Below are positions 3,637 to 44,763 of a DNA stretch of 64,000 bases, piece by piece. The notes beneath the pieces are model-generated. The model searched no databases. It was not told the origin of the DNA and saw only the letters and a program-made list of their open reading frames with translations. Within the stretch, counting starts at the first letter, position 1. Each line of letters begins with the position of its first letter. The DNA lies in NCBI RefSeq assembly GCF_010729895.1, contig NZ_AP022612.1, forward strand, positions 3,348,001 through 3,412,000, in the 5' to 3' direction. This DNA comes from Mycolicibacterium confluentis. Lineage in GTDB: Bacteria; Actinomycetota; Actinomycetes; Mycobacteriales; Mycobacteriaceae. A program made the translations under genes and the position numbers.

Positions 3637-3714
3637 AACCCGATAGTTATCTGCGATATCAGCCCGCATCCCGACCCAATGGTTGCATTAGTGCAGGGAG
3701 TATCCATATAGTTA
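3637..3714. promoter_or_regulatory. divergent control region with two TAGTTA/TAACTA sites
   Basis: Between the divergent SDR (2788-3549) and thiolase (3753-) lie AACCCGATAGTTAT at 3637-3650 and CATATAGTTATTAC at 3705-3718. The same hexamer, TAGTTA or its complement, recurs at 8081, 20342, 22924 and 35690, always next to catabolic promoters. I infer a shared operator, possibly for the tandem TetR proteins. No promoter was assigned. Confidence 0.5.
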
Positions 3715-3752
3715 TTACTGATTCTAGTGGTAACCCGAATGTGAGGGTGGGT

Positions 3753-4943
3753 ATGGAACGCAAGGTATGCGTCGCAGGGGTCGGCATGACCCCCTTCGCC
3801 AAGCCAGGCAAGAGCCGGGACTATCAGGAGATGGGTGCCGACGCCGCGCGCGCCGCCCTCGCCGATGCCGGGGTGGACTACACCAAGGTGCAGCAGGCCT
3901 ACGCCGGCTACGTCTACGGCGACTCGACGTCGGGGCAGGCGACGCTGTACCACCTGGGGCTCACGGGCATCCCGGTGGTCAACGTCAACAACAACTGCTC
4001 GACGGGTTCGTCGGCACTGTGGCTGGCCCGCCAGGCCGTGGCCTCGGGTGCAGCCGAATGTGTTCTCGCAGTGGGCTTCGAACAGATGCGTCCGGGCGCG
4101 CTCGCCGCGGTGTGGGATGACCGGCCCAGTTCGACCGGCAAGTTCGAAGAGGTCGCGCTGGGCCAGCCCGGCGCCGACCCGAAGGCGCCGATGGCCGCTC
4201 AGCTGTTCGGCGGCGCCGGTGTCGCACACATGGAGCGCTTCGGCACCAAACCAGAGACGTTCGGCCGCATTTCGGTCAAGGCACGCCAGCACGCCGCACG
4301 CAATCCGTTCGCCGTCTTCCGCGACACCGTGACGCTGGAGGAGGTGATGGCCTCACCGACGATCTGGGGACCCCTGACGCGACTGCAGTGCTGCCCTCCC
4401 ACGTGCGGTGCGGCTGCCGCAGTGGTGTGCAGCGAGGAGTTCGCTGCCGCCAACGGAATCGCGCAGACCGTCCACATCCGGGCCCAGTCCCTGGTCACCG
4501 ACCTCCCGGGTGCCTACAACGGCGAGGACATGCGCCGCGTGGTCGGCTATGACATGTCGGCGAAGGCCGCCCAGGACGTCTACGAGGCCGCAGGCGTTGG
4601 CCCCGAGGACATTCCGGTGGTCGAACTGCACGACTGCTTCACCACCAACGAGCTGATCACCTACGAGGCGCTCGGCCTGACCCCTGAGGGCACCGCCGAG
4701 AAGTTCATCCTCGACGGCGACAACACCTACGGCGGGCGCGTGGTGACCAACCCCTCCGGCGGTCTGTTGTCGAAGGGTCATCCGCTCGGTGCGACGGGCC
4801 TGGCCCAGTGCGCCGAACTGGTGTGGCAGTTGCGCGGCCAGGCCGGTGACCGTCAGGTCGAAGGTGCCCAGCTCGCCCTGCAGCACAACCTCGGTCTCGG
4901 TGGGGCCTGCGTCGTCACGCTGTACGAAAGGACTTCTCGATGA
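3753..4943 (+). CDS. thiolase-fold lipid-transfer protein (Ltp/SCPx-type acyltransferase)
   Basis: This 396-residue thiolase-superfamily protein carries the nucleophilic Cys in NNNCSTGSSAL (about residue 82), a His in VELHDCFTTNE (about residue 290), and the C-terminal GHPLGATG loop. This places it in the non-decarboxylating SCPx/Ltp branch rather than the classical FadA branch. Ltp proteins carry out thiolytic or retro-aldol cleavage of side-chain or ring-derived acyl-CoAs. The start ATG at 3753 follows GAGGGTGG; an in-frame GTG at 3741 is possible. Its stop overlaps the next gene by ATGA, giving a thiolase-MaoC-MaoC operon. Whether it is a thiolase or an aldolase cannot be decided from sequence. 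Confidence 0.85.
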   Translation: MERKVCVAGVGMTPFAKPGKSRDYQEMGADAARAALADAGVDYTKVQQAYAGYVYGDSTSGQATLYHLGLTGIPVVNVNNNCSTGSSALWLARQAVASGAAECVLAVGFEQMRPGALAAVWDDRPSSTGKFEEVALGQPGADPKAPMAAQLFGGAGVAHMERFGTKPETFGRISVKARQHAARNPFAVFRDTVTLEEVMASPTIWGPLTRLQCCPPTCGAAAAVVCSEEFAAANGIAQTVHIRAQSLVTDLPGAYNGEDMRRVVGYDMSAKAAQDVYEAAGVGPEDIPVVELHDCFTTNELITYEALGLTPEGTAEKFILDGDNTYGGRVVTNPSGGLLSKGHPLGATGLAQCAELVWQLRGQAGDRQVEGAQLALQHNLGLGGACVVTLYERTSR

Positions 4944-5389
4944 GCGCCGAATCCCTCAAGGGCTACCAGTGGCCGGAGAGCAGCGTCGACGTCGAACGGG
5001 GCCGTGTGGCCATGTTCGCCAAGGCGATCGGTGAAACCGATCCGGTCTACTTCGACGTCGAGGCCGCTCGTGCCGCCGGTCACCGAGACCTGCTCGCACC
5101 TCCGACGTTCGTGTTCGGGCTTGATCTCGAACACTCCGACACGCTCGGCGTCCTCGAGGCCAACGGCGTGGACGTGTCGTCCGTCCTGCACGGCGAACAG
5201 AAGTTCGTCTACCACCGGCCCGTGTATGCCGGCGACACGCTTGAACTGCAGGCCGAGTTCACCGACTACTTCTCAAAGAAGAACGGCGCCTTGGAGTTTC
5301 TGGTGCGTCGTTCCCAGCTGTCCTCCGGCGGCGAACTGGTCGCCGAGATGGAGAGTGTGTCCGTCATCCGGAATGGAGCACCATCGTGA
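4940..5389 (+). CDS. MaoC-like dehydratase, FAS1-type N-half
   Basis: This 149-residue hot-dog-fold protein resembles the N-terminal dehydratase family, with GETDPVYFD and LLAPPTFVFGL segments typical of the non-catalytic partner in heterodimeric MaoC hydratases such as HadA or ChsH2. It lacks the full hydratase-2 motif carried by the next gene. It is translationally coupled on both sides: ATGA with the thiolase upstream and a four-base overlap with the second MaoC gene. I infer a heterodimeric enoyl-CoA hydratase acting between an acyl-CoA dehydrogenase and the SDR or thiolase. Confidence 0.82.
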   Translation: MSAESLKGYQWPESSVDVERGRVAMFAKAIGETDPVYFDVEAARAAGHRDLLAPPTFVFGLDLEHSDTLGVLEANGVDVSSVLHGEQKFVYHRPVYAGDTLELQAEFTDYFSKKNGALEFLVRRSQLSSGGELVAEMESVSVIRNGAPS

Positions 5390-5802
5390 CCACCGCCACC
5401 ACTGAGATCCAGGTCGGAACCGAACTGCCACCGCTGGTGGTGGAGCCGATCTCCCGAACCACGTTGGCGCTCTTCGCCGGTGCGTCGGGTGACCACAACC
5501 CGATCCACGTCGACATCGACGCCGCCAAGGCCGCGGGTTTCGACGACGTGTTCGCGCACGGGATGCTGTCGATGGCCTACCTGGGACGTCTTGTGACGTC
5601 ATGGGTCCCGCAGTCGCAGTTGCGCGCGTTGAGCACGCGGTTCACCTCCATCACCCCGGTGCTCGCGCAACCGACGTGCACTGGGACAGTCGTGGGCGTC
5701 GACGATGTCGACGGCGAGAAGCGGGCCACCGTCGAGGTGAAGATCACCCTGGCCGACGGCACCGTGACGCTCAGCGGCGAAGCCGTGGTGGCGCTGCCGT
5801 AG
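5386..5802 (+). CDS. MaoC-like (R)-enoyl-CoA hydratase subunit
   Basis: This 138-residue hot-dog-fold protein contains the hydratase-2 signature, ASGDHNPIHVD followed by GFDDVFAHGM. The Asp and His of this signature are the catalytic pair in MaoC and HadB-type hydratases. The start is GTG, overlapping the stop of the FAS1-type partner, so the two are very likely subunits of one enzyme. It would hydrate a trans-2-enoyl-CoA to a 3-hydroxyacyl-CoA in the cytoplasm. A short spacer holding GGAGG separates it from the tandem TetR gene, so they may be cotranscribed. Confidence 0.88.
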   Translation: MTTATTEIQVGTELPPLVVEPISRTTLALFAGASGDHNPIHVDIDAAKAAGFDDVFAHGMLSMAYLGRLVTSWVPQSQLRALSTRFTSITPVLAQPTCTGTVVGVDDVDGEKRATVEVKITLADGTVTLSGEAVVALP

Positions 5803-5836
5803 ATCCGGACGAGGCCTGGAGGAGTGGACTATAATC

Positions 5837-7081
5837 ATGGTTCACTCTTCCGGGGTTCGATGGCCGCCGGAGGGCAGAAAAGGGAGGACCGCCGACGTGG
5901 CGCAGCCCGTTCGACAACACGCGCGAAGTTCGGTGCGCAAACTGCAGTTGTCTCAGGCTGCCGCCCGCCTGTTCACCGAACGCGGCTACCACAACGTCAG
6001 CATGGACGACGTCGCCTCGGCGGTCGGACTCACCGGTCCGGCACTCTATCGGCACTTCCGCAAGAAACACGACATTCTCGCGCAGGCGATCTCTGAGCAG
6101 TTGGGAGCAGTCGAAGCCGTTGCGGCCAAGGCCGCCGAAGCCGACCTGGAGCCCGACAAGCGCGCCACGATGTTCCTTTCCGACCTCGCCGACCTGGTCT
6201 TGGAGCGCGAGGAGGTCCTGCTGTGGAAGCGTGAGCGCCGGCAACTCGCCGAGAGCGAGCAGGACGAATTCCGGGCGAAGCTCAACGAGGTTCTCCGCCT
6301 GACGGTCAAGGCACTCGGCCTCGGAGACGGCGGCCAGCCCAGCAGCGATGCCGAACTGCGGGCGTGGAGCGTGCTGGCGATCTACTCCACCGTCGCCCCC
6401 GCCCGCAAGCGCCTCGACGACTCCGCGATCAAGCGCCTTCTGCAGACCATGGCCGAGGGCATCCTGCAGTGCAACCTGAAAGGCGCCGCGACGACGTCCG
6501 GACTGCCTGTGGCCCTGCAGCGCCGCCCACCGGGCCGCCGCGAGCGAATCCTGGCCACCGCCACGCGTCTGTTCCACGCGCAGAGCTACCATGCGGTCGG
6601 CATCGAAGAGATCGCGGCCGAGTCGGACACCGCGATCGCCACGTTCTATCAGTACTTCAGCGGTAAGGCCGAACTGCTGCAGGCCGTGTTGAGCCGCGGC
6701 GCCGAGGGGCTTCACTACGTCACCAATCACCGCCTCCCCTCCGCGAGCACACCGCAGGAGGCCATCGACACGATCGTCTGCACGCTCATCGAACTGGCCC
6801 TCGGCCCGCATCAGCCGATTCTGGCGATCCTCGCCGCGGATCTGATCTACCTCCCGGAGAACGCCCAGGACGCGATTCGGATGAGCGAGCGCGAGTACGT
6901 CGATGAGTGGGTGGCTGCCATTCTCGCTGTGCGGCCAGAACTTTCGGCGCCGCACGCGCGCCTGCTGGCGCAGGCGTCCATCGGGTTGGTCACCGACATC
7001 ACCCAGACGCAGAGCATGCGCAGCCGTCCGGGCATCGCGGAGGAACTGCACCGGCTCGTGTCGGCCGTTCTCGCCGCCTAA
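5837..7081 (+). CDS. single-chain tandem TetR regulator (Mce3R-type architecture)
   Basis: This 414-residue protein contains two complete TetR units in one chain. The first helix-turn-helix is near residues 45-85 (SMDDVASAVGLTGPALYRHF) and the second near 245-285, with FYQYFSGK closing its recognition region. Each HTH is followed by a helical ligand-type domain. M. tuberculosis Mce3R, the repressor of mce3, has this two-repeat layout, whereas ordinary TetR proteins are half the length and dimerise. The gene follows the MaoC pair and sits beside an mce operon, so control of lipid import and catabolism is a fair inference. The start may lie later than 5837, since about 30 residues precede the first helix. 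A second paralogue lies at 35794-37059. Confidence 0.85.
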   Translation: MVHSSGVRWPPEGRKGRTADVAQPVRQHARSSVRKLQLSQAAARLFTERGYHNVSMDDVASAVGLTGPALYRHFRKKHDILAQAISEQLGAVEAVAAKAAEADLEPDKRATMFLSDLADLVLEREEVLLWKRERRQLAESEQDEFRAKLNEVLRLTVKALGLGDGGQPSSDAELRAWSVLAIYSTVAPARKRLDDSAIKRLLQTMAEGILQCNLKGAATTSGLPVALQRRPPGRRERILATATRLFHAQSYHAVGIEEIAAESDTAIATFYQYFSGKAELLQAVLSRGAEGLHYVTNHRLPSASTPQEAIDTIVCTLIELALGPHQPILAILAADLIYLPENAQDAIRMSEREYVDEWVAAILAVRPELSAPHARLLAQASIGLVTDITQTQSMRSRPGIAEELHRLVSAVLAA

Positions 7082-8039: not shown

Positions 8040-8080
8040 GTCGACACACCACCCATCTCAGTTCAAGCAAGAATAGAAAC

Positions 8081-8101
8081 TAACTACAACCCGATAATAA
8101 C
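8081..8101. promoter_or_regulatory. TAACTA plus CCCGATA operator-like element
   Basis: TAACTA at 8081-8086 is followed directly by AACCCGATAATAAC at 8088-8101, which matches AACCCGATAGTTAT at 3637-3650 in its first eight bases. It lies in the spacer between the divergent esterase (7119) and SDR (8196) genes. Regulation by the tandem TetR proteins is inferred from recurrence only. Confidence 0.45.
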
Positions 8102-8195
8102 TCGTCAGCGGACCATTGACGCTCATCTTCGATGAAGTTAACCTTCACACAAGGGTCCCTGCAACGAAGCCCGGACAGAACACGTGAGGAACGAC

Positions 8196-10131: not shown

Positions 10132-10646
10132 GACACGAACTGAACGTCGGAGACCCGGGCGGTGTCGCCGGTCTGCTGCACCCCGATGCGCATCCGCCAG
10201 ACCCGTGGATCTGGCTCCGCGGCACCGGCATTGGACATCTTGACTGACATCACCACCAGAACCTGCGCACCGTCTCCGTCGCGGGATTCCAGCGCGGCCG
10301 AGCTCACAGTGCCCTCCGAGGTGGACTGGGCCTGCTTGACGACGTCGGCGAAGGGTTGCGAACGCTTCTCGAAGTCCTCGTGGAACGTGCCGGTCGAGGA
10401 ATCGAGGATGCGCTTGATATCCGCGTCCACGGTGCTGTGGTCGATGGTGGTCAGGTTGATCGCACCCTGCCGCGCGGCCTCGACGAACATGCTCTGCTGC
10501 GCTTGGTCCCGCCGGTCCTCGACCAGACGGTAGCCCAGCCAACCTCCGATGGAACCCAACGCGACGAATGCCACCGCACACACCGCAACCACGGCCTTGG
10601 TGGTCGAACCCGTCAGCCCATCGGCGGGATCAACATGCTCTGCCAT
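10128..10646 (-). CDS. Mce-associated membrane protein (Mas-type)
   Basis: This 172-residue protein has a short cytoplasmic N-terminus, a single transmembrane helix (about residues 16-40, TTKAVVAVCAVAFVALGSIG onward), then an extracytoplasmic alpha/beta domain that closes with RVSDVQFVS. It is the first of two tandem Mce-associated genes after mceF, an arrangement typical of mycobacterial mce operons. It begins 34 bp inside the 3' end of mceF. It is distant in sequence from its neighbour but has the same topology. Confidence 0.82.
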   Translation of the reverse strand: MAEHVDPADGLTGSTTKAVVAVCAVAFVALGSIGGWLGYRLVEDRRDQAQQSMFVEAARQGAINLTTIDHSTVDADIKRILDSSTGTFHEDFEKRSQPFADVVKQAQSTSEGTVSSAALESRDGDGAQVLVVMSVKMSNAGAAEPDPRVWRMRIGVQQTGDTARVSDVQFVS

Positions 10647-12064
10647 GTCCTGCCTTCCGTCTTCGCGCCCAGGTCGGCCTGGGTGTAGATCTTCCCGTCA
10701 GGTGCGACGTACTCGCCGGTGTCCGGGTTGTACTCGGCCACCGCGACAGGTGCCGGGGCCGGAGCCGGAGCGGCGGCGGGCGGCTGATCGGCCGTCGGCA
10801 ACAACTGCGGGACGCCCTGGCCGGTCAACGTCGCGTTCGGGTCGCCCTTCCAGTTGAAGCCCTCGTTGAGGGGTACGTACTCCTCGTCGCTCTCACACAT
10901 GCGTGCCGTCGGCGCGCGCTTGCCCGGGCGGTTCAGGCACGGGTAGTTGCGGTTGCCGCGCACCACATTCCAGGAGTCCTGCGGGATCCGGCAGTACAGA
11001 TCGCCGGGCGGGAGATCCGCCGACGTCTCCACATTCGGGGTGAGCTGCTGGTGCACAGGCAGGAACCCGGTGGTGCATGGTGGCGGCAGGTTGAGGTTGA
11101 GGTTGAAGCTCACGTACAGGCCGGGGGTCTTGCGCTTGGAGTCACGGTTGGCCAGAAGTGCACCCTGAAGGCCCGCGACGAGTTGCGGCTCGAGGACCAG
11201 CACCTGCTCGATCGCGGGCTGGTACACCACCGCGACTTCACCGACGCTGACGAGGTTCGCCATCAGCACCGGCAGTGTCGGCTTCAGCGTGTCGAACAGC
11301 GCCCGCGCCTCCTCGGTCGCCGCAGCGCCGCGCTCGAGCAGGCCGGCGACCGCGGGGTCGGCATCGCGGACCTGACCGGTCAGGTTGGCCAGGTTGGCGG
11401 CCCAGGCGTTGATGGAGTCCGCCGTCTCGCTCTGCGCGTCCATCAGCGGCTTGGCCTTGTCGATCAGCGCGAGCAGCGGATCGAGGTTGGCGCGTGCATC
11501 CGAAGCCAGGCGCGTGGAGCCCTGCACGATGCGGGACAACTCAGGCCCGAGACGCCCGACCGCGGTATAGCTCTCGTCGACAACGGTTTTGACGTTGTCG
11601 CGCGGGATGGCCTGAATTCCCTCATTCGCGGCGTCCAGCAGTTTGTTGATCGGCGGGGGCACCGTCGCCCGATCCAGCGGAATGACATCGCCATTCGCCA
11701 AGGGCGCCGCACCGGCACTGCGCGGCACCAGGGCGACGTACTGCTCGCCGATCGCCGAGGTGCTGTGCACCTCCGCGGTCAGATCCGACGGGATGTCGAT
11801 TCCGGAGTTCAGCGACAGCACCGCCTCGACCCCGCCGGTCCGGGTCAGGCGCACCTCGGTGACCCGTCCGACCGTGGTGCCGCGGTAGGAGACGTTGGCG
11901 GTCTCGTACAGTCCGGCGGCCTGCGGGAGTTCCACGGTGACGGTGTACTGACCGACGCCGAACATCGCGGGCACCTTGATGTATCCGAACGCCATGATCC
12001 CGCCCGCGACCACGGAGACGATCGCAAAGAGCGCCAGTTGGAGCTTGATTCGCCTGGTCAACAT
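10613..12064 (-). CDS. mceF: Mce family protein MceF
   Basis: This 483-residue protein has one N-terminal membrane helix (residues 6-28), an MlaD/MCE domain (residues 37-115, with YETANVSYRGTTVGRVTEV), a long helical region, and a Cys- and Pro/Ala-rich C-terminal part with repeated PAPAPAP. It is the sixth and last Mce subunit of the operon. Mce proteins form a hexameric tunnel that carries lipids across the periplasm to the YrbE permease. It starts one base after the mceE stop. The substrate is unknown; mce4 takes cholesterol and mce1 takes fatty acids in M. tuberculosis. Confidence 0.9.
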   Translation of the reverse strand: MLTRRIKLQLALFAIVSVVAGGIMAFGYIKVPAMFGVGQYTVTVELPQAAGLYETANVSYRGTTVGRVTEVRLTRTGGVEAVLSLNSGIDIPSDLTAEVHSTSAIGEQYVALVPRSAGAAPLANGDVIPLDRATVPPPINKLLDAANEGIQAIPRDNVKTVVDESYTAVGRLGPELSRIVQGSTRLASDARANLDPLLALIDKAKPLMDAQSETADSINAWAANLANLTGQVRDADPAVAGLLERGAAATEEARALFDTLKPTLPVLMANLVSVGEVAVVYQPAIEQVLVLEPQLVAGLQGALLANRDSKRKTPGLYVSFNLNLNLPPPCTTGFLPVHQQLTPNVETSADLPPGDLYCRIPQDSWNVVRGNRNYPCLNRPGKRAPTARMCESDEEYVPLNEGFNWKGDPNATLTGQGVPQLLPTADQPPAAAPAPAPAPVAVAEYNPDTGEYVAPDGKIYTQADLGAKTEGRTWQSMLIPPMG

Positions 12065-12065
12065 G

Positions 12066-13211: not shown

Positions 13212-13213
13212 GC

Positions 13214-35689: not shown

Positions 35690-35713
35690 TAGTTAATTCA
35701 GACTATAGTCGGG
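35690..35713. promoter_or_regulatory. TAGTTA/ACTATAGTCGGG operator-like element
   Basis: TAGTTA at 35690-35695 and CTATAGTCGGG at 35703-35713 lie in the divergent spacer of fadE5 and the tandem TetR gene. The order matches that upstream of the LLM gene, TAGTTA then TATCGGG, with a similar spacing. This suggests an autoregulatory operator. Confidence 0.5.
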
Positions 35714-35793: not shown

Positions 35794-37059
35794 ATGCCCC
35801 AGCCGATGGGAAAGAGTGAGATGCCACGATCGACGGCAGCGCGCGTGGAGAACGTGAAGAAGACTCTGCACTCGTCCGCCCGGGGCAGTCATCGGACCGA
35901 ACAGGTCGCGCGTGCTGCGGCCCACCTCTTCCAGGACTACGGCTACCAGAACGTCAGCATCGATCGGATCGGCGCCGCGGTCGGCCTGACCGGACCGGCC
36001 GTCTACCGGCACTTCAAGGGCAAGCACGAGATCCTGGTGCACGCGCTCATGAGCCAGGTGCGCCTCGCCGAGGATCTGCACGCGGCGGTCAACGACCAGG
36101 GCACGACGGCCGAGGAGAGACTGCATCTTCTGCTGGCCGGTTTCGGGGATCTCACGGCCAACGGCAACGAGGCCACCCTGTGGCGACGTGAACAGCGACA
36201 CCTCGACCCCGCCGAACGCGAGATCTTCCGAAAGTACTTCGCCGACAATCAGGAACAGATCGCCGCACACATCAACGCTTTCAAGCCCGAACTCGGCGAG
36301 TACAAGTCCGAGCTCCTGGGCTTCGCGGTGCTGGCGATGTTCTCGAGCACACCCGACATTCGAGGATCCCTCTCCGCCGATCGGCTGCAGGAGATCCAGC
36401 GGGCACTCGCGTGGTCGATCATCGAATGCCCACTGCCCGAACATGATCCGGACGTCGCCCCTGATCCCGCACCCACGCACCGCCAGCCCGCGGGCCGCCG
36501 GGAACGCATCATCGACGCCGCCGCGCGACTGTTCGACGAGCGCGGTTTCTACGATGTGCACATCGACGACATCGCCAAGGCCTCCGAGATGTCCACCGCC
36601 ACGCTCTACCAGCATGTGGCGAGCAAGACCGAGGTGCTGCGCGCGGTCCTGGACCGGGGCGCCGAGGGTCTGCTCTACGTCACCGCCGATGCGCTGGCCT
36701 ACGCGGCCACTCCGCAGGAGACGCTCGACGCGCTCGTCGGCACCTACATCCGGCAGGCCGTGGGCCCATACGGCCGGCTCATGCACATCCTCGCCTCGGA
36801 TCTGCTGTACCTGCCCGAGGAGGAACAGCAGACGCTGCGCAACGCGCAACGGGAGTATGTGGCCGAGTGGGTCGAAGCCATCGAGACGCTGTCCGACGGG
36901 CTCAGCACCGGTGACGCCCGCGCGCTCGCCCAGGCCGCGATCGGCGTCGTCACGGATGTCACCCAGAACCCGAGGCTGCGTCACCGTCCGAAGATCACCG
37001 AGGAGCTCACGGCCCTGGTGCTCGCGATGGTGCGGCCCGAAGGACTGACCTCCGCCTAG
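35794..37059 (+). CDS. second single-chain tandem TetR regulator
   Basis: This 421-residue protein has two TetR repeats. The first HTH is near residues 50-85 (SIDRIGAAVGLTGPAVYRHF) and the second near 255-290 (HIDDIAKASEMSTATLYQHV). It is clearly paralogous to the 5837-7081 protein, since both share the GLTGPA(L/V)YRHF segment and the DRGAEGLLYVT-like / SRGAEGLHYVT-like stretch after the second HTH. It is likely to repress fadE5 and other catabolic promoters. Start codons at 35794 or 35821 are both possible. Its TAG stop shares the CTAG palindrome with the stop of the convergent small gene at 37056. Confidence 0.85.
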   Translation: MPQPMGKSEMPRSTAARVENVKKTLHSSARGSHRTEQVARAAAHLFQDYGYQNVSIDRIGAAVGLTGPAVYRHFKGKHEILVHALMSQVRLAEDLHAAVNDQGTTAEERLHLLLAGFGDLTANGNEATLWRREQRHLDPAEREIFRKYFADNQEQIAAHINAFKPELGEYKSELLGFAVLAMFSSTPDIRGSLSADRLQEIQRALAWSIIECPLPEHDPDVAPDPAPTHRQPAGRRERIIDAAARLFDERGFYDVHIDDIAKASEMSTATLYQHVASKTEVLRAVLDRGAEGLLYVTADALAYAATPQETLDALVGTYIRQAVGPYGRLMHILASDLLYLPEEEQQTLRNAQREYVAEWVEAIETLSDGLSTGDARALAQAAIGVVTDVTQNPRLRHRPKITEELTALVLAMVRPEGLTSA

Positions 37060-37454
37060 TCCGGGAGGCCGGGCAGCAGGCCCCGCGAGATCTCGGACTT
37101 GACGTCGGCCGCCGTGAATTCGGCGACCGCACGGGCGATCTCCGGGCCGGAACCGTCGGCATACGCCGATGCCAGCGCATCGCCGATCGCGACGCGACCG
37201 CTGCGCAGTGCCTCGAGACCGTCACCCTCGACGTCGCGGCCGAGCAGTTCGGCCAGCGCCCTGGTCTGGGAGACGCTCTCCGACAACGGCGCCGAAGCCC
37301 AGGCCAGCCGCCCGTCGAGGTTGTCCAGCATCTCGATGACGGCGTGCAGTTCGCCTCGGGCGCTCTCCGATTCGATCGCGGGCAGCACGCTGTTGACCAG
37401 CGTCTCCCGGATCGTGTGCTGCACCTTGTTCAGATCCAGTGCATAGATCGTCAT
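37056..37454 (-). CDS. small helical protein, possible LvaB-type kinase partner
   Basis: This 132-residue protein has no clear catalytic motif. It is predominantly helical, with RETLVNSVLPAIESESARGELHAVIEM and LAELLGRDVEG segments. It is the last gene of an eight-gene operon, one base after the APH-type kinase. In Pseudomonas levulinate catabolism, a small protein of this type (LvaB, DUF6285-like) is needed by the kinase LvaA. Position and size suggest the same role here, but the sequence match was not tested. Function should be treated as unknown. Confidence 0.6.
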   Translation of the reverse strand: MTIYALDLNKVQHTIRETLVNSVLPAIESESARGELHAVIEMLDNLDGRLAWASAPLSESVSQTRALAELLGRDVEGDGLEALRSGRVAIGDALASAYADGSGPEIARAVAEFTAADVKSEISRGLLPGLPD

Positions 37455-37455
37455 C

Positions 37456-38499
37456 TCAGGATCCCCACTCTCCGTCGCGCAGCATCTGATTGAGCCATCC
37501 GAGGCTGTAGTACACGCTGTGCGCCATGTTTGCGTAGCGCAGTTCGGGCCGGTCTCCGCGTTCGTAGATCGCGACGGCCTGCAGGCACCCGATGGCGGTC
37601 TTGGTCAGGGACTGCACGGCCCACCAGGTGAGGCTCGCCGGCTCCGGACGCCATCCGGCGGCCTCGGCGTAGACGTCGAGGAACTCGTCGACCGGGAGCA
37701 GCTTGCAGGCCAGCGGTGAGCGACCACGCGAGGTGCGCTGGAAGAACCAGGCCAGATCGGCGATCGGGTCACTGAAATGTGCAGTCTCCCAGTCGAGGAC
37801 GCCGACAAGGGACCCGTCGTCCGGGCTGACCACGAGGTTGCCCACCCTGAAATCGTTGTGCACCAGCGCGACCCGGCCCGAGACCTGATCGGCACGGTGG
37901 TCCAGCCACGCCAGTGCCAGATCCAGGACAGGTATCCGGACCGTGGCGACTTCGTCGTAGGTCTTGCGCCACTGGTCGTTCTCGACCCGTCCCGTGTCCC
38001 CGGGTGCCGGCGGCGCGTCGAGTTCGGGCAGGGTCAGCGACTCAGGTGCTGCCGCGTGCAGGGTCGCCATCTCACGCGCCACCCGGCGGCCGAGCGCCGC
38101 GCGGTCCGCGGCGTCGGTGACCATGCGGGACACGTTGTGCGGCATGGGAACCACGCCGACCAGGCGCTCCATCACGAAGAACCCGCGATTGCCGGGCTCA
38201 CCGACACGATGCGCGACCACGCCGGGCACCGGCAGGCCCAGGCCGTCGGCGGCGCGCAGCAGCGCAACCTCACGACCCACGTCGTAACTGCCCACAATGC
38301 CGCTGAGGGGTTCACGCTTGACGGCGTATGACGCACTCTTGGCCCCGGAATCCCAGGACGCGGTGATCAGATAGGTCTCCCACGAGTTGCCCTCGCCGCG
38401 CTGATCGACGTCGACCAACTCGACCGGACTGCCGTCGGCCACACGGGCACTGAGGACCGCGGCCAACTCCTCGAGGAATTCCGAAGTTCCCTCACTCAT
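37456..38499 (-). CDS. APH-family phosphotransferase (ACAD10/LvaA-type acyl-CoA kinase candidate)
   Basis: This 347-residue aminoglycoside-phosphotransferase-fold protein has the catalytic loop LVHNDFRVGNL (H-x-D-x4-N) near residue 215 and the metal motif VLDWETAHFSDPIADLAWFF near 238. The latter is close to the VLDWE...GDP pattern of the ACAD10/11 and LvaA kinases that phosphorylate 4-hydroxyacyl-CoAs. Antibiotic resistance is unlikely, since the neighbours are fatty-acid genes. AGGAGGGTG precedes the ATG. It follows an SDR and an acyl-CoA dehydrogenase, as expected for that pathway. Confidence 0.82.
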   Translation of the reverse strand: MSEGTSEFLEELAAVLSARVADGSPVELVDVDQRGEGNSWETYLITASWDSGAKSASYAVKREPLSGIVGSYDVGREVALLRAADGLGLPVPGVVAHRVGEPGNRGFFVMERLVGVVPMPHNVSRMVTDAADRAALGRRVAREMATLHAAAPESLTLPELDAPPAPGDTGRVENDQWRKTYDEVATVRIPVLDLALAWLDHRADQVSGRVALVHNDFRVGNLVVSPDDGSLVGVLDWETAHFSDPIADLAWFFQRTSRGRSPLACKLLPVDEFLDVYAEAAGWRPEPASLTWWAVQSLTKTAIGCLQAVAIYERGDRPELRYANMAHSVYYSLGWLNQMLRDGEWGS

Positions 38500-38512
38500 C
38501 TCTGCACCCTCC

Positions 38513-39289
38513 TCAGATCACGCTGACCGGACGGCCGCCACCGTCGACGGTGACCCGCTGCCCGGTGACATAGCCCGCGTCGGCCGACACCAGGAATGCC
38601 ACGACCCCGGCGATGTCCTCCGGCGTGCAGACCCGGCCGAACGGATAGGTGCGGGCGAGATCCTCGATCGACCCACCGCCGGTGGCCGCACGGACCAGGC
38701 GTCGTCCCATCTCGGTCTCGACCAGGCCGGGCGCCACGATGTTGGCGCGGATGCCGTGCTCGCGCTCCTCCTGCGCCAGCGTGCGGACGCACATCTCCAT
38801 GGCGGCCTTGGCCATGGTGTAGGGAGCCGACAGCGCCGGCGCCTCGGTCACGGTGCTGCTCGAGATCATCACCACGTCACCGCGTTCCGCGGCCCGCATG
38901 TCCGGCAGGACTCTCTGCACCAGGTGGATGGGGCCCAACGCATGCACCTGCAGCAGCGACACGAAGTCAGCGCCCGGCGTGTCACTGACGGGTTGCCCCT
39001 TGCTCGCGGTGCCCGCGTTGCTGACCACGATGTCCACCGGGCCGAGGTCCTCGCGCACCGCGTCCACCATCGCGTCGACGGCGTCGTGATCGTCGATCGC
39101 CGCGCAGTACGCCTTGGCTCGGCCACCTGCCGACACGATCTCGGAGACCACCTCGTCGGCGGCCTCAGCGCCGCGACGGTAGTTCACCGCGACCGCCGCC
39201 CCGTTGCGCGCCAGGCGCAGGGCGATACCGCGGCCCACTCCTCGAGAACTGCCGGTGACCACTGCCACCCGTCCATCCAACGTCGACAT
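38513..39289 (-). CDS. SDR-family oxidoreductase
   Basis: This 258-residue classical SDR has VTGSSRGVGRGIAL at residues 12-25, SNAGTAS near 90, a catalytic Ser in MISSST and YTMAK near 157-161. In the operon it precedes the kinase and follows the acyl-CoA dehydrogenase, so it may reduce a 4-oxoacyl-CoA to the 4-hydroxy form, as LvaD does. Its ATG overlaps the stop of the dehydrogenase gene (ATGA), and the kinase gene starts 13 bases after it. Confidence 0.85.
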   Translation of the reverse strand: MSTLDGRVAVVTGSSRGVGRGIALRLARNGAAVAVNYRRGAEAADEVVSEIVSAGGRAKAYCAAIDDHDAVDAMVDAVREDLGPVDIVVSNAGTASKGQPVSDTPGADFVSLLQVHALGPIHLVQRVLPDMRAAERGDVVMISSSTVTEAPALSAPYTMAKAAMEMCVRTLAQEEREHGIRANIVAPGLVETEMGRRLVRAATGGGSIEDLARTYPFGRVCTPEDIAGVVAFLVSADAGYVTGQRVTVDGGGRPVSVI

Positions 39290-40428
39290 CAACCCACCAC
39301 CGCTCGTCCGACGAGGTCCTTCATGACCTCGTTCGATCCGCCATAGATCCGCTGGATGCGCGCATCGCGCCACATCCGGGCGATCGGATACTCCTCCATG
39401 TAGCCGTAGCCACCGAACAACTGCAGCACGCGGTCGAGAACCTCCCACTGCAGTTCAGTCGCCTTGTACTTCGCGCCGGCGGCCTCGGCGGCGGTGAGCT
39501 CACCGTCGTTGAGGGCCACCACACAGCGGTCGACGTACTCCTGCAGCACGGCGATGTCGGTGTGCATGTCCGCGATCTGCATCCGGACGGACTGCAGATT
39601 CGTCAGCGGTCCACCGAACGCGTTGCGCGCGCGGGTGTGGTCGAGTCCCAACTCCAGTGCGTGACGCGCGGAGGCGACCGCCGCGACGGCGATCGACAGC
39701 CGTTCGCGTGGGAGATTCGCTATCGCAGAACCGAATCCGCGTCCCGGCTCGCCGATGATGTTGGACACCGGCACCCGGCAGTCGTCGAAGAACAGTTCGG
39801 CGGTGTCCTGAGCCTTGCGGCCGATCTTGTGCATGGGACGGCCGCGCTCGAAGCCCGGCGTGCCGTTCTCGACGGCCACGAACGTCGTGCCGCGGCCGTC
39901 ACGTTCACCCGTGCGCACCAAGACGATCGCCAGATCGCAGGTGGCGCCGCTGGTGATGAAGGTCTTCTGGCCGTTGATCACCAGATGATCGCCGTCTCGG
40001 CGTGCGGTCGTCTTGATCGCCGCGAGATCGGATCCGGCACCCGGTTCGGTCATGCCCAGGGCCGTGACGCAGTCACCACGCGTGAACGCGGGAAGCCAAC
40101 GCTCCTGCTGTTCGGGGGTGGCCAGATCGCGCAGGTAGGGCACGATGATGTCGTTCTGCATCGAGAAGAGGTCACCGGCCATACCCGAGGCGACGACCTC
40201 TTCGGTCATCACCGCGTTGTAGCGGAAGTCCTCGATGCCCAGACCGCCGTACTCGGCACCGAATTCAAAACCGAGGAAACCGTTTTCGCCGGCGGCCCGG
40301 ATGAACTCCCGGTCGACGGTTCCGGCCTCCTCCCACGCGTCGACGTGGGGCACCGCGGCATGGTCGATGAACGCGCGGAACGCCTGCCGGAACGCCTCGT
40401 GCTCCTCGGTGTAGAGCGTCCTACGCAC
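39289..40428 (-). CDS. acyl-CoA dehydrogenase
   Basis: This 379-residue dehydrogenase has the FAD-binding GMTEPGAGSDLAAIKT and the C-terminal RIYGGSNEVMKDLV. The residue usually acting as base (Glu in YEG) is Gly here, as in LCAD and isovaleryl-CoA dehydrogenases, where the base is a Glu in helix G; an ER pair occurs in NLPRERLSIAV. It oxidises an acyl-CoA, or acts like LvaC on a phosphorylated 4-hydroxyacyl-CoA. The GTG at 40428 with GGAGA upstream overlaps the synthetase stop by eight bases. Confidence 0.87.
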   Translation of the reverse strand: MRRTLYTEEHEAFRQAFRAFIDHAAVPHVDAWEEAGTVDREFIRAAGENGFLGFEFGAEYGGLGIEDFRYNAVMTEEVVASGMAGDLFSMQNDIIVPYLRDLATPEQQERWLPAFTRGDCVTALGMTEPGAGSDLAAIKTTARRDGDHLVINGQKTFITSGATCDLAIVLVRTGERDGRGTTFVAVENGTPGFERGRPMHKIGRKAQDTAELFFDDCRVPVSNIIGEPGRGFGSAIANLPRERLSIAVAAVASARHALELGLDHTRARNAFGGPLTNLQSVRMQIADMHTDIAVLQEYVDRCVVALNDGELTAAEAAGAKYKATELQWEVLDRVLQLFGGYGYMEEYPIARMWRDARIQRIYGGSNEVMKDLVGRAVVG

Positions 40429-41977
40429 TCGTCTTCTCCTTCTGGTCCTGCCAGTACTTGTCGCGAAGTTGGCGCTTGTACAACTTTCCGGTCGGCAGCC
40501 GGGGCATCTCATCAATGAAGTCAAAGGACTTGGGACACTTGAACTTGGCAATGTGTTCGGTGCAGAACTCAAGAAGCCGCTGCGCGAGTTCTTCTGTCCC
40601 GCCGTCTGGATCGACAGGCTGGATGACCGCCTTCACGGCCTCCCCGAAGTCCTCGTCCGGGACACCGAACACCGCGGCGTCCATGACCTCGGGATGGGTG
40701 ATCAGCAGGTTCTCAATCTCCTGCGGGTAGATGTTGACTCCGCCGGAGATGATCACGAACGCCTGCCGGTCGGTGAGGAACAGATAGCCTTCCTCGTTGA
40801 CGTAGCCGATGTCGCCGATCCTCGACATCGTGCCGGTGGAATCCTGTGCCTGCGCGGTCTTCTCAGGGTCGTTCAGATACTCGAACGAGCTGTTGCCGCC
40901 ACGGAACCAGATGGTTCCCGGAACTCCCGCGGGAAGTTCGTTGCCGTCGTCGTCCCGGATGACGATCTCGCCGAAGAACGCCTTGCCGACGGTGCCCGGG
41001 TTGGCCAGCCACTCCTGCGGGGTGCAGCCACAGGTTCCGTTCGCCTCGGTGCCGCCGTAGTACTCGTAGATCACCGGGCCCCACCAGTCGAGCATGGCCT
41101 GCTTGACCTGGCGCGGGCACGGTGCGGCGCCGTGTACGACGGCTTCCAGCGAGGAGTGGTCGTACTTCTCCCGGATCTCCTTGGGCAGCTTGAGCGCTCG
41201 GGAGAACATCGTCGGCACCACCATCGTGTGGGTGACCCCGAACTCCTCGATGAGCGCCAGGAACTGCTCGGTGTCGAACTTCTCCATCACGATGTGGGTG
41301 GCGCCAAGGCGCAGGCCGATCGAGATGCTGGACTGCGGGCCGGAATGATAAAGCGGGGCGGTCGACAGGAACGTCATACCCTCGCGCATCCGGAAAAGCC
41401 GCTTTCCCATCTCCTCGATGCCGAGCTGTTCCTGCGGCGACACATCGGGAAGCTGGCGCTTGACCGCCTTGGGCCGGCCCGTGGTGCCCGAGGAGTAGAA
41501 CATCGGGGTGCCGAGTCGCTCGTCATCGGCGGGTGTCGACGGGTACTGCTCGATGACCGCTGCGAAGTTCTCAAACGGCTGCGGCGGGTCGGCCAGGTCG
41601 ATGACGAGCCAGTGCTCGACCTTCGGGCAGTGCTGCGGAAGCTGCTTCGCCACATCGAATTTGGCGGCGCTGGTGACCAGCAGTCTGGCGCCGCAGTCAT
41701 CCGCGATGTAGGCCGCCTCCTCCACCGAGAGGAACGAGTTGATCGGGGTGTAGTACAGCCCGCAGCGTTCGGCTGCCGACATCGTCACGATCATGTCGAG
41801 GTGGTTCTCGGTGAAGATCGCGATGGGGTCGGTGCGCCGCAGACCGAGTGCGCGGAAGTGGTTGGCGACTCGGTTGGCGCGCTCGTCGAACTGCCGGTAG
41901 GTGAGTGTCTCTCGGCTGCCCGCCATGATCAGCGCGGGACGGTCGGGATTCTCCTGTACGTGACGTCCGGGGTACAT
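40421..41977 (-). CDS. acyl-CoA synthetase (AMP-forming, FadD-type)
   Basis: This 518-residue ANL enzyme has the P-loop FYSSGTTGRPKAVKR near residue 166, an EYYGGTEANG segment near 305, GDIGYVNEEGYLFLTDR near 400, and the catalytic Lys in LPTGKLYKR near 502. It activates the carboxylic-acid substrate of this operon, the role LvaE plays in the lva cluster. It overlaps the dehydrogenase gene and starts 22 bases after the AttH-like gene. Confidence 0.9.
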   Translation of the reverse strand: MYPGRHVQENPDRPALIMAGSRETLTYRQFDERANRVANHFRALGLRRTDPIAIFTENHLDMIVTMSAAERCGLYYTPINSFLSVEEAAYIADDCGARLLVTSAAKFDVAKQLPQHCPKVEHWLVIDLADPPQPFENFAAVIEQYPSTPADDERLGTPMFYSSGTTGRPKAVKRQLPDVSPQEQLGIEEMGKRLFRMREGMTFLSTAPLYHSGPQSSISIGLRLGATHIVMEKFDTEQFLALIEEFGVTHTMVVPTMFSRALKLPKEIREKYDHSSLEAVVHGAAPCPRQVKQAMLDWWGPVIYEYYGGTEANGTCGCTPQEWLANPGTVGKAFFGEIVIRDDDGNELPAGVPGTIWFRGGNSSFEYLNDPEKTAQAQDSTGTMSRIGDIGYVNEEGYLFLTDRQAFVIISGGVNIYPQEIENLLITHPEVMDAAVFGVPDEDFGEAVKAVIQPVDPDGGTEELAQRLLEFCTEHIAKFKCPKSFDFIDEMPRLPTGKLYKRQLRDKYWQDQKEKTSA

Positions 41978-41999
41978 CGTTGTTGCCCTCCGTCGTTCG

Positions 42000-42983
42000 C
42001 TAGGTGAGGGGCCGCAGGAACTCTGCGATGCCCCAGCCGCCTTGGCCGCCCGCGTAACGGACGGACATCTGCCCCATGCGCGCGGCGCGGTCGGCGGTGC
42101 GCTGAGTGACCGGCACGAAGTGGTTGATCGACCCGTCGAGCACCAGCGTCGGAAGACCGTCGGCGGTGATCACTCCGACGTTGCGCCCGTCGTAGGTGGC
42201 CTCACCCGCGTAGTCGGTGTAGACGGTGTAGTCCCGGATGGGGTGGAAGACCCCGTCCGGGGTGACCACGACGCCGCCCGACGCGCGTTCACCGTTCGGT
42301 TCGAACTCGCCGTACGCAGTGATCGCCGTGCCGTCGGCCAGCCATGCGGCGAGCCACTCCCCTGTGTAGGACGCCCACTCCCGCGGGCCCCACGAGTGGT
42401 CGCGGAAGGAGGTCGCGCGGTCGATGGTCCACGTCGTCGACCCCAGCCGCACGGTCCCGCTGACATGACCGAACTGCTCGTAGTGGTCGGTGGCGATCTG
42501 CGAACTGCCCGGCGTGCAGTCCCCGTCCTCGGCGATGGTGAACATCGGCACCGACGCCTCGAACGTCAGCGAGATCTCGCACTCCACCGACGGGGAGTTC
42601 TTCAGCGCCTGCCTGCCCCGCTCAGCCAGCAGCGACGGCGTGCTGATGAGCGCCACAGTGTTGCGGTAGGTCACCTCCCACGACCGAGTCGGATCCTTGG
42701 GCTTGATGGTGAGGCCCTGGGTCGACCACTGCTCGTTGGACTCGTTGGGCTTACGCCCGGCGCGCAGCGCGATGCGCCCACCCGGCAGCGTCAACTGCAC
42801 CGTGGCCTCCGAGTACCCCATCGTCGGCCGGTTGCCGATGCGCATCAGAGCGCTCACTTCGCTGATCGGGTCGACGAAGTTGACGTAGACGCTCTCGTTG
42901 TAGTTGGCGATACCCGCTGGATCGTGGGTGAATTCGGCATCCGTGCCGTACTGGCATGCCGTGAACGGCGCTGAGGTGTCCAT
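42000..42983 (-). CDS. AttH/CrtC-like lipocalin-fold protein (DUF7064/7065-type)
   Basis: This 327-residue protein lacks a known catalytic motif but has the TSFRDHSWGPREW segment (about residues 180-192) typical of the AttH/carotenoid 1,2-hydratase-like beta-barrel family, together with an N-terminal DPISEVSALMRIGNRP segment. Such proteins are found in actinobacterial lipid and steroid clusters and may hydrate or bind isoprenoid or other hydrophobic ligands. Membership of this fold is a motif-level judgement. It lies in the middle of the operon, so a role in the same catabolic pathway is likely. Confidence 0.65.
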   Translation of the reverse strand: MDTSAPFTACQYGTDAEFTHDPAGIANYNESVYVNFVDPISEVSALMRIGNRPTMGYSEATVQLTLPGGRIALRAGRKPNESNEQWSTQGLTIKPKDPTRSWEVTYRNTVALISTPSLLAERGRQALKNSPSVECEISLTFEASVPMFTIAEDGDCTPGSSQIATDHYEQFGHVSGTVRLGSTTWTIDRATSFRDHSWGPREWASYTGEWLAAWLADGTAITAYGEFEPNGERASGGVVVTPDGVFHPIRDYTVYTDYAGEATYDGRNVGVITADGLPTLVLDGSINHFVPVTQRTADRAARMGQMSVRYAGGQGGWGIAEFLRPLT

Positions 42984-43002
42984 GCAGGGGCCTCCGGGGG
43001 TG

Positions 43003-43872
43003 TCAGAAGTGGTCGGCGGGATGGTCGTTGAGTGGCGGGAACACCGCGGGGCGGCGCTCCAGGAACGACATCACGCCTTCGTGGACATCGGCGGTACGCA
43101 GCCGGCTGGCGTACACACGGGACTCGTCCTCGCATGCCGCCCTCGGGGTGGCGTGCCCCCAGCTGCGGCCGAGGAGTCGCCGAGACAACGCGACCGATGC
43201 CGGTGAAGTCTCGGTGACGAACACCCGGGCGTAGGTCATCGCTTCGTCGAGAACGGCATCGGCCGCCACGACGCGGGTCAGCAGACCGGCCTCGTAGGCC
43301 TCCGCGGCCCCGAACACCCGCCCGGACAGCACCCAGTCGGTGGCCCGGGTCAGGCCCACCAGTCGTGGCAGGAACCACGAGGAGGCGCTCTCCGGAACCA
43401 CACCGCGACGGGTGAACACGAACCCGAAACGCGAACGCTCACCGGCGATCCGCACGTCGGTGGCCGCCATGATCGACGCTCCCCCACCCACTGCGTCGCC
43501 GTTGACCGCGGCGATCACCGGGGTGCGCATGTCGAACAACCGTTCACTGACACGGCCACCCGGCTCACGGTACCCCGTCGGCGTGTGGCCCTGGACGTCC
43601 TCCTCGAGAGCCTCGAGGAGGGTGTCCGGTCCGTTGAGCTCAGCTCCGACGCAGAAGTGGTCACCCGCACCGGTCAGGACGACCGCACGCACGGCCGGGT
43701 CCCGATCGGCGATGTCGAGCGCATCCCACAGGTCACGCAACATCTGGTTGCGCAACGCGTTTCGGCGTTGAGGCGCGTTGAAGCTGATGACCGCGACGCC
43801 GTCGTCGAAGCGGTAGTCGACCTCTTCGTACGCCGGCGGCGCGATGTGGGCCGCCGGCTCCGCGCCGGTCAC
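43003..43872 (-). CDS. enoyl-CoA hydratase/isomerase family (crotonase)
   Basis: This 289-residue crotonase-fold protein has the oxyanion segment FCVGAELNG near residue 75 and AAVNGDAVGGGASIMAATDVRIA near 130, the second oxyanion loop with the family Gly repeats. The usual catalytic Glu after GGG (as in GGGCELA) is not obvious, but a VPESASSW segment near 164 carries a Glu. The GTG at 43872 overlaps the SDR stop by GTGA. It hydrates or isomerises an enoyl-CoA in this operon. Confidence 0.85.
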   Translation of the reverse strand: MTGAEPAAHIAPPAYEEVDYRFDDGVAVISFNAPQRRNALRNQMLRDLWDALDIADRDPAVRAVVLTGAGDHFCVGAELNGPDTLLEALEEDVQGHTPTGYREPGGRVSERLFDMRTPVIAAVNGDAVGGGASIMAATDVRIAGERSRFGFVFTRRGVVPESASSWFLPRLVGLTRATDWVLSGRVFGAAEAYEAGLLTRVVAADAVLDEAMTYARVFVTETSPASVALSRRLLGRSWGHATPRAACEDESRVYASRLRTADVHEGVMSFLERRPAVFPPLNDHPADHF

Positions 43873-44696
43873 GCTCCGCCGCTGCAGACCAGCGTCTGAG
43901 CGGTGATGTAGCTCGACTCCGGGGCGCACAGCAGGTACACCGCACCGGCCGCCTCTTCGACGCTGCCGCCGCGGCCGAGCGCGATCTGGGTGGTGACGGC
44001 TTCGTAGACGTCCGGGTTGACGCCGACCTTGATCTCGCGGCCGTCGACGTCGATGGTCTTCGCCTCGGTGGTGATCGTGGTCAGCCGAGTGTTGATGACG
44101 CCGTAGGCGATGGCGTTGACGGTGACGTTGTAGCGGCCCCACTCCTTGGCCAGCGTCTTGGTCATGCCGATCAAGCCCGCCTTGGCCGTCGAGTAGTTGA
44201 CCTGTCCGGGGTTGCCCAGCAGGCCCGAGGTCGACGACGTGTTGACGATGGCACGGCGGGACGCCTGCCCGTTTTCGGCCTTCTCCTTCTTGGCCAGACC
44301 GGAGATCACCGGCTGGGCGGCCCGCAGGATGCGGAACGGCGCGGTGAGGTGCACGTCGATGATGTCGTTCCACTGCTGGTCGGTCATCTTCTGGATGACG
44401 TTGTCCCAGGTGTAGCCGGCGTTGTTGACGATGATGTCCAGACCGCCGAAGTTGTCGACCGCCGCCGCAACGAAACGATCCGCGAACTCAGGGTCGGTGA
44501 CGCTGCCCGTGCACGCGACGGCCTGGCCGCCGGCGGCCTCGATCGCGGCAACCACTTCCTTGGCCGGTTCGGCGTCGAGATCGTTGATGACCACCTTGGC
44601 ACCCTCGGCGGCCAGCTTCTCCGCGACCGCACGCCCAATTCCGCGGCCCGAACCCGAAACCAGCGCGACCTTTCCGTCAAGTCGTCCTGTGGTCAC
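43869..44696 (-). CDS. SDR-family oxidoreductase (FabG-like), first gene of the operon
   Basis: This 275-residue classical SDR has SGSGRGIGRAVAE at residues 14-26, NNAGYTWD near 91, a catalytic Ser in VNTSSTSG and YSTAK near 167. Before the catalytic core it has a short insertion (AKKEKAENGQASRR). The GTG at 44696 follows GAGAGGACG. It opens the lva-like operon and has an inverted repeat just upstream. Confidence 0.88.
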   Translation of the reverse strand: MTTGRLDGKVALVSGSGRGIGRAVAEKLAAEGAKVVINDLDAEPAKEVVAAIEAAGGQAVACTGSVTDPEFADRFVAAAVDNFGGLDIIVNNAGYTWDNVIQKMTDQQWNDIIDVHLTAPFRILRAAQPVISGLAKKEKAENGQASRRAIVNTSSTSGLLGNPGQVNYSTAKAGLIGMTKTLAKEWGRYNVTVNAIAYGVINTRLTTITTEAKTIDVDGREIKVGVNPDVYEAVTTQIALGRGGSVEEAAGAVYLLCAPESSYITAQTLVCSGGA

Positions 44697-44740
44697 TGCA
44701 ACGTCCTCTCAAGTGGTGAAATCCCTACGTTGTTGTGAAC

Positions 44741-44763
44741 CCTAACTCTATAGCGTGGTTAGG
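44741..44763. promoter_or_regulatory. CCTAAC-n11-GTTAGG operator-like repeat
   Basis: A perfect 6-bp inverted repeat with an 11-base spacer (CTATAG in the middle) lies about 45-67 bp upstream of the first gene of the lva-like operon. CCTAAC resembles the CCTAACTATA found upstream of the LLM gene (reverse strand of 22921-22931). It is a candidate operator for the tandem TetR proteins. Confidence 0.5.

Follow-up and report, generated by a model that had tools for sequence, protein, structure and literature searches.

Paralogous double-TetR regulators and their putative half-shared asymmetric operators at a catabolic and mce-import gene cluster of Mycolicibacterium confluentis

The window considered here is a stretch of 64,000 nucleotides from Mycolicibacterium confluentis (contig NZ_AP022612.1, positions 3,348,001 to 3,412,000). 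Its genes encode an mce import operon, a cytochrome P450 (P450), LLM and FAD monooxygenases, acyl-CoA synthetases and dehydrogenases, lipases, SDRs, and a thiolase (ltp) that resembles SCP2-thiolase type 1. Close homologous loci belong to named Mycobacterium and Mycolicibacterium species, among them M. peregrinum, M. vaccae, and M. aurum. Two further genes encode paralogous double-TetR regulators, termed dTetR1 and dTetR2. A first-pass annotation had noticed that the word TAACTA recurs between these genes, and had proposed it as the operator motif of one lipid-catabolic regulon. The regulon idea is largely right, and finds good support in conservation across species, a matrix test, and co-variation of operator class with regulator type. 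The motif, however, needs redefinition as a longer, asymmetric composite that comes in two classes. The paralogue pair with half-shared operators is the new part.

The two tandem TetR proteins of that annotation are each a tandem, with two TetR_N domains in one polypeptide, but the two genes lie 29 kb apart. The best relative of both in the PDB is Mce3R (9b7y): dTetR1 residues 19-413 are colinear with Mce3R 2-397 (E 5e-34), and the best stretch of dTetR2 spans residues 62-413 (E 3.5e-24). A structural alignment matches the predicted dTetR1 model to DNA-bound Mce3R over 379 residues at about 25% identity, and the predicted arrangement of both TetR units within the chain is that of the solved structure of Mce3R. 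The first recognition helix, G(L/I)TGPA-YRHF, is found in 39/39 full-length chains of both types. The second differs: A(I/L)AT(F/V)YQ in 16/16 dTetR1 rows, and (M/I)S-(A/S)T(L/F)YQ in 24/24 dTetR2 rows. (These counts leave out the chains of genomes G771 and G422.) In the Mce3R study, the R53A substitution abolished high-affinity binding (PMC11667970). Our alignment places R53 at the YRH arginine of the first TetR unit. In a tree of 59 rows, dTetR1 (99/92) and dTetR2 (100/100) form sister groups joined at 100/100, under a midpoint root and with several long branches. Mce3R and five orthologues stand separately (100/100), and dTetR1 and dTetR2 fall outside their clade. No paper on either regulator or their operator was found in the open-licence literature searched.

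TAACTA or its complement, TAGTTA, occurs six times in the window, exactly at the positions first reported (3644, 3709, 8081, 20342, 22924, and 35690). As was also claimed, all six copies are intergenic, spacers making up 8.3% of the window according to a hand-edited table of open reading frames. One hundred dinucleotide shuffles contained 0.54 copies on average and three at most; the whole genome (5,876,557 bases) contains 55, for 0.6 expected per 64 kb (Poisson P ~4e-5). A post hoc check of six-mers places TAACTA first in over-representation among the 49 with an expectation below 1 (P 7e-5), and only 170th among all six-mers, where GC-rich words head the list. The enrichment is real; judged on the word alone, it is modest. 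Five of the six copies lie inside a longer conserved site, and the copy at 22924 lies outside any.

Alignments of orthologous promoters reveal what this longer site may be. The conserved islands hold TAGTTA and reach about 22 bp, and, read from the sequences, the word is one half of the asymmetric site TAGTTA(G/A)T-N4-ATTCTAG. A general form, (TA)TAGTTA(G/A)T-N4 followed by the right half, precedes most operons of the catabolic and mce-import cluster, which spans about 45 kb. The ltp promoter island reads TATAGTTA(G/T)T-N4-ATTCTAGT, and the lip1/SDR_C spacer has the same on the opposite strand. Further islands are GTTAATTnCAGTTCTAC at SDR2; GTTAATnnCAGTTCTG at the P450; GT(T/G)AGT-N4-ATTCT at LLM; and GGTTAGTnCTCATTTCAG at ACS/acad27. 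Six putative operators without an exact TAACTA (1836, 19834, 22884, 27582, 31479, and 44795) had been missed; one is at the mce operon, 28 bp upstream of its first permease reading frame (19003-19806, minus strand).

Matrix scans point the same way. A matrix built from ltp site B of 11 other species matches the window at 3707, 8067, 1836, 35688, 20328, 27582, 3642, and 5828, with scores from 35.1 down to 9.2 bits; that is, at seven sites besides 3707 itself. Two hundred column-permuted matrices gave a mean of 2.3 matches of at least 8 bits (largest number, 8) and a mean best score of 10.1 bits (largest, 19.7). The two weakest matches, 3642 and 5828, therefore lean on conservation and not on score, because permuted matrices reach comparable scores. 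A broader class I matrix, also from other species, has nine matches of at least 11 bits in the window, all in spacers (permuted mean 0.77, maximum 3). It adds 22884, 19834, and 20127, the last on score alone. The expression TNGTTANNNNNNRTTYY, which was composed to cover the window sites, has nine matches in the genome, six of them in the window. In other carriers, the share of class I pattern matches that fall in the cluster, among the matches listed, is 6/10 in G021, 5/8 in G200, 5/6 in G317, 5/9 in G153, 5/8 in G027, 4/13 in G068, 3/11 in G290, 2/9 in G262, 1/7 in G245, and 0/0 in G140. G166 has at least 3/7 (on the fetched contig), and shares for G099 and G386 are incomplete. Genome-wide counts in cluster carriers (4-13; G245, 7; G140, 0) overlap those in ten regulator-free genomes (2-9), so that the two kinds of genome are told apart only by where the matches fall. 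Two pattern matches at genome positions 1083609 and 2112098 (L137 and L138) share identical 17 bases and the same secondary match in their flanks. The recurrence of their word in several further genomes suggests an element that is repeated and perhaps mobile.

The right half of the site comes in two forms. The left half is common to both; class I continues with ATTCTAG, and class II with A(A/C)TATG. The class II form, GTKA(A/G)-N-N4-A(A/C)TATG, is found in the dTetR2/acad33 spacer, the lip2/sucCoA spacer, and the SDR44 promoter. A strict class I expression finds 56 sites: ltp in 12/12 genomes, SDR_C in 11/12, SDR2 in 12/12, P450 in 4/11 (6/11 by matrix match), LLM in 6/7, and ACS in 11/11. The strict class II expression finds 18, with the dTetR2 promoter in 12/13 genomes (two of these strings were placed by hand) and lip2/sucCoA in 6/12; the window itself falls outside these six. 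With a class II matrix derived from other species, the window has nine matches of at least 11 bits, eight of which lie in spacers (permuted matrices: mean 1.1, maximum 5). Class I sites are among these matches, and the classes therefore overlap. Both are asymmetric by sequence, and neither is a palindromic homodimer operator of the KstR kind. The ltp promoter contains two spaced operator-like sites, A and B, with a gap of 43 bp. The conserved island of site A, GTTA-n-ATATCAGC, lies 65 bp before site B in 11/12 genomes; an expression search in G068 gave no match.

Table 1. Genes, candidate operators, and promoter elements of the window
Feature	Position	Strand	Score and conservation
ltp (SCP2-thiolase-like), FAS1-type dehydratase, MaoC; one operon with dTetR1	3741..5802	+	
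dTetR1, double-TetR (Mce3R-type) regulator, fourth gene of ltp operon	5837..7081	+	
mce lipid-import operon: two MlaE permeases, six MlaD/Mce proteins	10613..19806	-	
P450, ferredoxin-reductase-like protein, F420-type LLM oxidoreductase, FAD monooxygenase	20518..25962	+	
Acyl-CoA synthetase, acyl-CoA dehydrogenase, phosphatase-like, lip2, acyl-CoA ligase	26037..33668	.	
dTetR2, paralogous double-TetR regulator, divergent from acyl-CoA dehydrogenase	35794..37059	+	
Operon: APH-like, SDRs, acyl-CoA dehydrogenase, ACS, enoyl-CoA hydratase	37056..44696	-	
Putative class I operator upstream of SDR2 (1953-2723)	1836..1857	-	20.2 bits (matrix from another promoter, other species); 12/12 genomes
Putative operator A, ltp promoter (holds TAACTA 3644)	3642..3663	+	11.0 bits; right half ATATCAGC, neither class
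Probable ltp core promoter TTGCAT-N18-TATAGT	3683..3712	+	Both boxes largely conserved
Putative class I operator B, ltp promoter (holds TAACTA 3709), overlaps -10 box	3707..3728	+	35.1 bits (matrix from the same site in 11 other species)
Operator-like site over dTetR1 -10 and start codon	5828..5849	-	9.2 bits (site-B matrix); 18.1 bits (class II)
Putative class I operator, lip1/SDR_C divergent spacer (holds TAACTA 8081)	8067..8088	-	26.7 bits; 11/12 genomes
Third element TGAAGTTA-NN-CTTCACA over SDR_C -10	8133..8149	+	Conserved
Putative class I-like operator (GTGAAGAnCAATTCTG), mce operon	19834..19855	+	16.4 bits; island in 9/11 genomes
Putative class I operator upstream of P450/ferredoxin reductase (holds TAACTA 20342)	20328..20349	-	16.4 bits
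Putative class I operator, LLM/FMO promoter, in place of 22924	22884..22905	-	17.3 bits; 6/7 genomes; alignment
Third element, LLM promoter	22951..22967	+	Conserved
Putative class I operator, ACS start / acad27 spacer	27582..27603	+	12.1 bits (21.4 with wider class I matrix); 11/11 genomes
Putative class II operator, lip2/sucCoA divergent spacer	31479..31500	-	19.5 bits; alignment
Second class II-like site, sucCoA promoter	31544..31565	-	15.0 bits; CATAATC-n3-GTTCACA conserved
Putative class II operator, acad33/dTetR2 divergent spacer (holds TAACTA 35690)	35688..35709	+	27.4 bits (class II); 17.5 (class I)
Third element, SDR44 promoter, overlaps 44741 palindrome	44732..44748	-	
Putative class II operator upstream of SDR44-ech-ACS-acad operon	44795..44816	+	17.7 bits (matrix from other promoters); island conserved

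How are operator classes and regulators distributed? Among 396 sampled genomes of the genus, 14 have a dTetR1 orthologue (split over two frames, L081 and L082, in G317), and 13 of these also have dTetR2. Twelve of the 14 dTetR1 genomes carry the cluster, two of them over separate contigs and G290 in rearranged form. G245 (L005) has dTetR1 and dTetR2 side by side, without the cluster; a single class I-like site lies 141 bp before its dTetR1 gene. A third double-TetR paralogue lies inside the cluster in G027 (C12:89077-90246) and G262 (C1:4082974-4084140), where the mce-P450 interval is longer.

Further genera of the same family permit a comparison at the orthologous ltp promoter. Seven genomes have ltp and only dTetR2-type genes: their best dTetR1 matches are the dTetR2 loci themselves (39-43%), and in 6/7 the dTetR2-type gene sits inside the ltp operon, at the place of dTetR1 in the window. 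In these genera no operators were seen directly upstream of dTetR2; sites lie upstream of ltp instead (six of seven ltp-bearing genomes). Promoters were scored with matrices trained without any ltp site, except for G771. In Pseudonocardia, as in 12/12 genomes from the genus of the window, the ltp promoter is class I. In G639, G476, G549, and G614, from three genera, it is clearly class II (right half 14.3 versus -3.3 bits). G771, which has dTetR1-type genes, has class I sites at ltp (20.2 bits) and before its SDR-dTetR1 operon (23.6 bits) by a matrix that included ltp sites, and no class II match of at least 10 bits. Operator class thus agrees clearly with regulator type in 14/14 dTetR1 genomes and 4/7 dTetR2-only genomes, or 18/21 overall. 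Dropped from this count were G506 and G517 (which have a dTetR2-type gene, but lack an ltp cluster in the stretch covered), along with G140, G245, and Nocardia locus L008 (dTetR1-type genes without ltp nearby).

Several things can be read from the sequences themselves: a composite site that is conserved and concentrated in the cluster, the division into two classes, the helix pattern, the predicted fold of dTetR1, and the association of class with regulator at ltp. Together they make it probable that the catabolic and mce genes form one regulon, under a pair of paralogous single-chain repressors that act asymmetrically and have one operator half in common. We infer binding by dTetR1 and dTetR2, the assignment of helix-turn-helix motifs to half-sites, the regulatory sign, and the ligand as follows. 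Built like Mce3R, dTetR1 and dTetR2 would bind the operator as one chain per site. The near-identical first helix-turn-helix (GLTGPA-YRHF) would read the shared GTTA half, and the second the discriminating half: class I ATTCTAG for dTetR1, and class II A(A/C)TATG for dTetR2. The patterns match in this sense, the shared first helix paralleling the shared operator half and the divergent second helix the divergent half. Sites lie over or next to promoter boxes, as at the ltp -10 (3707), which implies repression; this would be lifted by a substrate or CoA-ester ligand. The operator-like site at 5828..5849 makes autoregulation of dTetR1 possible, and the class II site at the dTetR2 promoter may play such a part for dTetR2.

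A number of observations weigh against this interpretation. The operator classes are not cleanly separated: the class II score of site 3707 is 18.9 bits, and the class I score of site 35688 is 17.5; for most genomes of this genus, left halves also lean towards class I, by up to 7 bits; the right half of site A fits neither class; and the strict class II pattern has a single genome match, therefore missing 31479 and 44795. The helix pattern has exceptions as well. The first helices of G771 are GLTGPALYRHF and the variant GVTGPALYRHF; the G422 chain (C8, L241), 39% identical to dTetR1 and of neither counted type, has GIRGPALYRHF, yet its gene adjoins an acyl-CoA dehydrogenase and a class I match of 20.3 bits lies in a nearby ACS/lipase spacer. 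G140 has dTetR1 alone (73%), without the cluster and with zero class I pattern matches genome-wide. At ltp, class I and class II right-half scores are 3.0/3.5 bits in G662 and -3.5/1.1 in G558 (its regulator genes are not in the ltp operon), and G675 leans class I (5.9/3.2) despite having only dTetR2-type genes. Because of shared ancestry, moreover, genomes are not independent points, and the regulator swap may be one or a few evolutionary events. Finally, the promoter islands of Mce3R orthologues differ in sequence, and Mce3R therefore supports the geometry only.

Several of these points could also be explained if a single regulator, most likely dTetR1, acted on all sites, the classes being variants of a loose motif and dTetR2 acting elsewhere. 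The overlapping class scores, the first helix common to both proteins, and the three dTetR2-only genomes that are not clearly class II fit such a scheme. It is nevertheless unlikely: the second helix separates the two types completely, class II sits at the promoter of dTetR2 itself, and class tracks regulator at the orthologous ltp promoter in 18/21 genomes. A third regulator encoded elsewhere, with the double-TetR genes as mere neighbours, seems quite improbable, since the operator co-occurs with dTetR1- or dTetR2-type genes in three families, its class mostly follows the second helix, and an asymmetric site suits a single-chain protein with two helix-turn-helix motifs better than a homodimer. 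TetR proteins are abundant, though (148 TetR_N matches in the genome, with 150/260 candidates scored), and a palindromic third element at three cluster promoters suggests that more than one regulator may act.

It is very improbable that TAACTA is no operator but a promoter element, the -10 box TATAGT of a shared promoter class. TATAGT does lie inside site B (3707) and the dTetR2 site (35688), the 22924 copy falls at a TATA-like stretch, and ltp has a -35-like TTGCAT 18 bp upstream. But orientation varies, the SDR2, SDR_C, P450, and LLM sites running against their gene; SDR_C has its own promoter, TTGACG-N17-TAACCT, downstream of the operator; and the conserved unit extends beyond the -10 to the right half at a fixed N4 spacing. 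Chance occurrence of a short word, 170th among all six-mers, in AT-richer spacers is hardly conceivable, contradicted as it is by the cross-species composite islands, the matrix result, and the genome-wide concentration.

Other proposed elements fared less well than the TAACTA half. The companion word CCCGATA is present as described (3639, 8090, and as TATCGGG at 22935), but is not part of the operator. It has further window copies at 33985 and 53658, and as a second half-site it is rejected by its rarity in orthologous upstream regions: 3/12 for ltp, 1/12 for SDR_C, 1/7 for LLM, and 0/13 for dTetR2. The CGGG reported at 35711 is at 35710. The palindrome CCTAAC-n11-GTTAGG exists (44741-44763); within an alignment of 12 it is common only to the closest relative, G166, and it overlaps a promoter and the third element, so it too was set aside as an operator. 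The 22924 copy of TAACTA was likewise rejected as the LLM operator: in the 90 bp before LLM, 0/6 orthologues have the word or its complement, and at most a TATA-like stretch is seen. LLM orthologues keep AGAATC-n-CTnAC some 20-40 bp further upstream. A PDB search with the P450 matched many hydroxylases and indicated no substrate.

The third element, TGAAGTTA-NN-(C/G)TTCACA, is a near-palindrome, GTGAAG-N5-CTTCAC, that overlaps the -10 of three cluster promoters. TTGAC lies about 17 bp upstream in orthologues, and the element is also present in the SDR44/ltp spacer of related genera. At the dTetR1 promoter (5824-5847), a conserved AGTGAAC-N10-GTTCACT straddles TATAAT and the start codon, its first arm altered in the window; the dTetR1 mRNA may therefore be leaderless and autoregulated.

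These results provoke a broader idea, one that in our judgement could fall either way: a modular operator code. Duplicated single-chain TetR proteins might keep one operator half (first helix-turn-helix and GTTA) and diverge in the other, so that paralogues divide, and perhaps compete for, the promoters of one pathway; rewriting half an operator would re-assign a promoter, as at ltp between genera. The code might also take in the GTGAAG-N5-CTTCAC element, whose span of 17 bp is the same. The cluster is a natural experiment: a paralogue pair, a shared and a divergent helix, matching operator halves, and orthologous promoters in several genera. It reduces the assignment of helix to half-site to a helix-swap and half-site-swap test; yields a consensus operator for a large cluster of catabolic and lipid-import genes; and points to a way in which regulons may be rewired half an operator at a time, free of the symmetry constraint on homodimers.

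Known regulators resemble this system in part. The sterol-catabolic repressors KstR and KstR2 are TetR proteins of the same genus, but are distant in sequence and recognize palindromic motifs (PMC4482099). The same source gives BkaR/Fad35R a single TetR unit per chain and a palindromic motif, unlike dTetR1 and dTetR2. A monomeric mycobacteriophage immunity repressor offers a parallel to the proposed mode of binding, with one chain, two domains, and an asymmetric DNA site (PMC9283540). It serves phage immunity, however, and not catabolism. The protein itself is not known to be related to dTetR1 and dTetR2.

Mce3R is the closest comparison. As reported (PMC11667970), it is one chain with two non-identical TetR helix-turn-helix motifs and an asymmetric operator; dTetR1 is predicted to share its fold. 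It likewise has two sites in one promoter, and a regulon with an mce operon and lipid-metabolism enzymes. Yet it belongs to a separate clade on a long branch, and its published site gap is 53 bp, versus 43 bp here. Identity of the operators was rejected: upstream of yrbE-type genes at 20 Mce3R-orthologue loci, the islands GTACTA-n-CAAGATACAT and GTATTGGCTATGGACAT differ from the sites described here. Two of the islands lie about 53-54 bp apart, in agreement with the published gap, a match by spacing only. The site-B matrix found nothing of at least 8 bits at 17 of the loci; the exceptions are L187 (13.2 bits, upstream of the permease gene) and L182 and L193 (up to 10.4). Alignment upstream of the Mce3R orthologue genes themselves was uninformative, because contexts differ. 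Mce3R orthologues (67-87% identity) were found in 69/396 sampled genomes of the genus, mostly of 5-7 Mb (L146-L175), which is hard to square with the published statement that only a subset of pathogenic mycobacteria has them (PMC11667970). According to the authors of the Mce3R structure, no double-TetR protein had been solved before it (PMC11667970). The dTetR1/dTetR2 system differs from Mce3R in having two paralogues and two operator classes.

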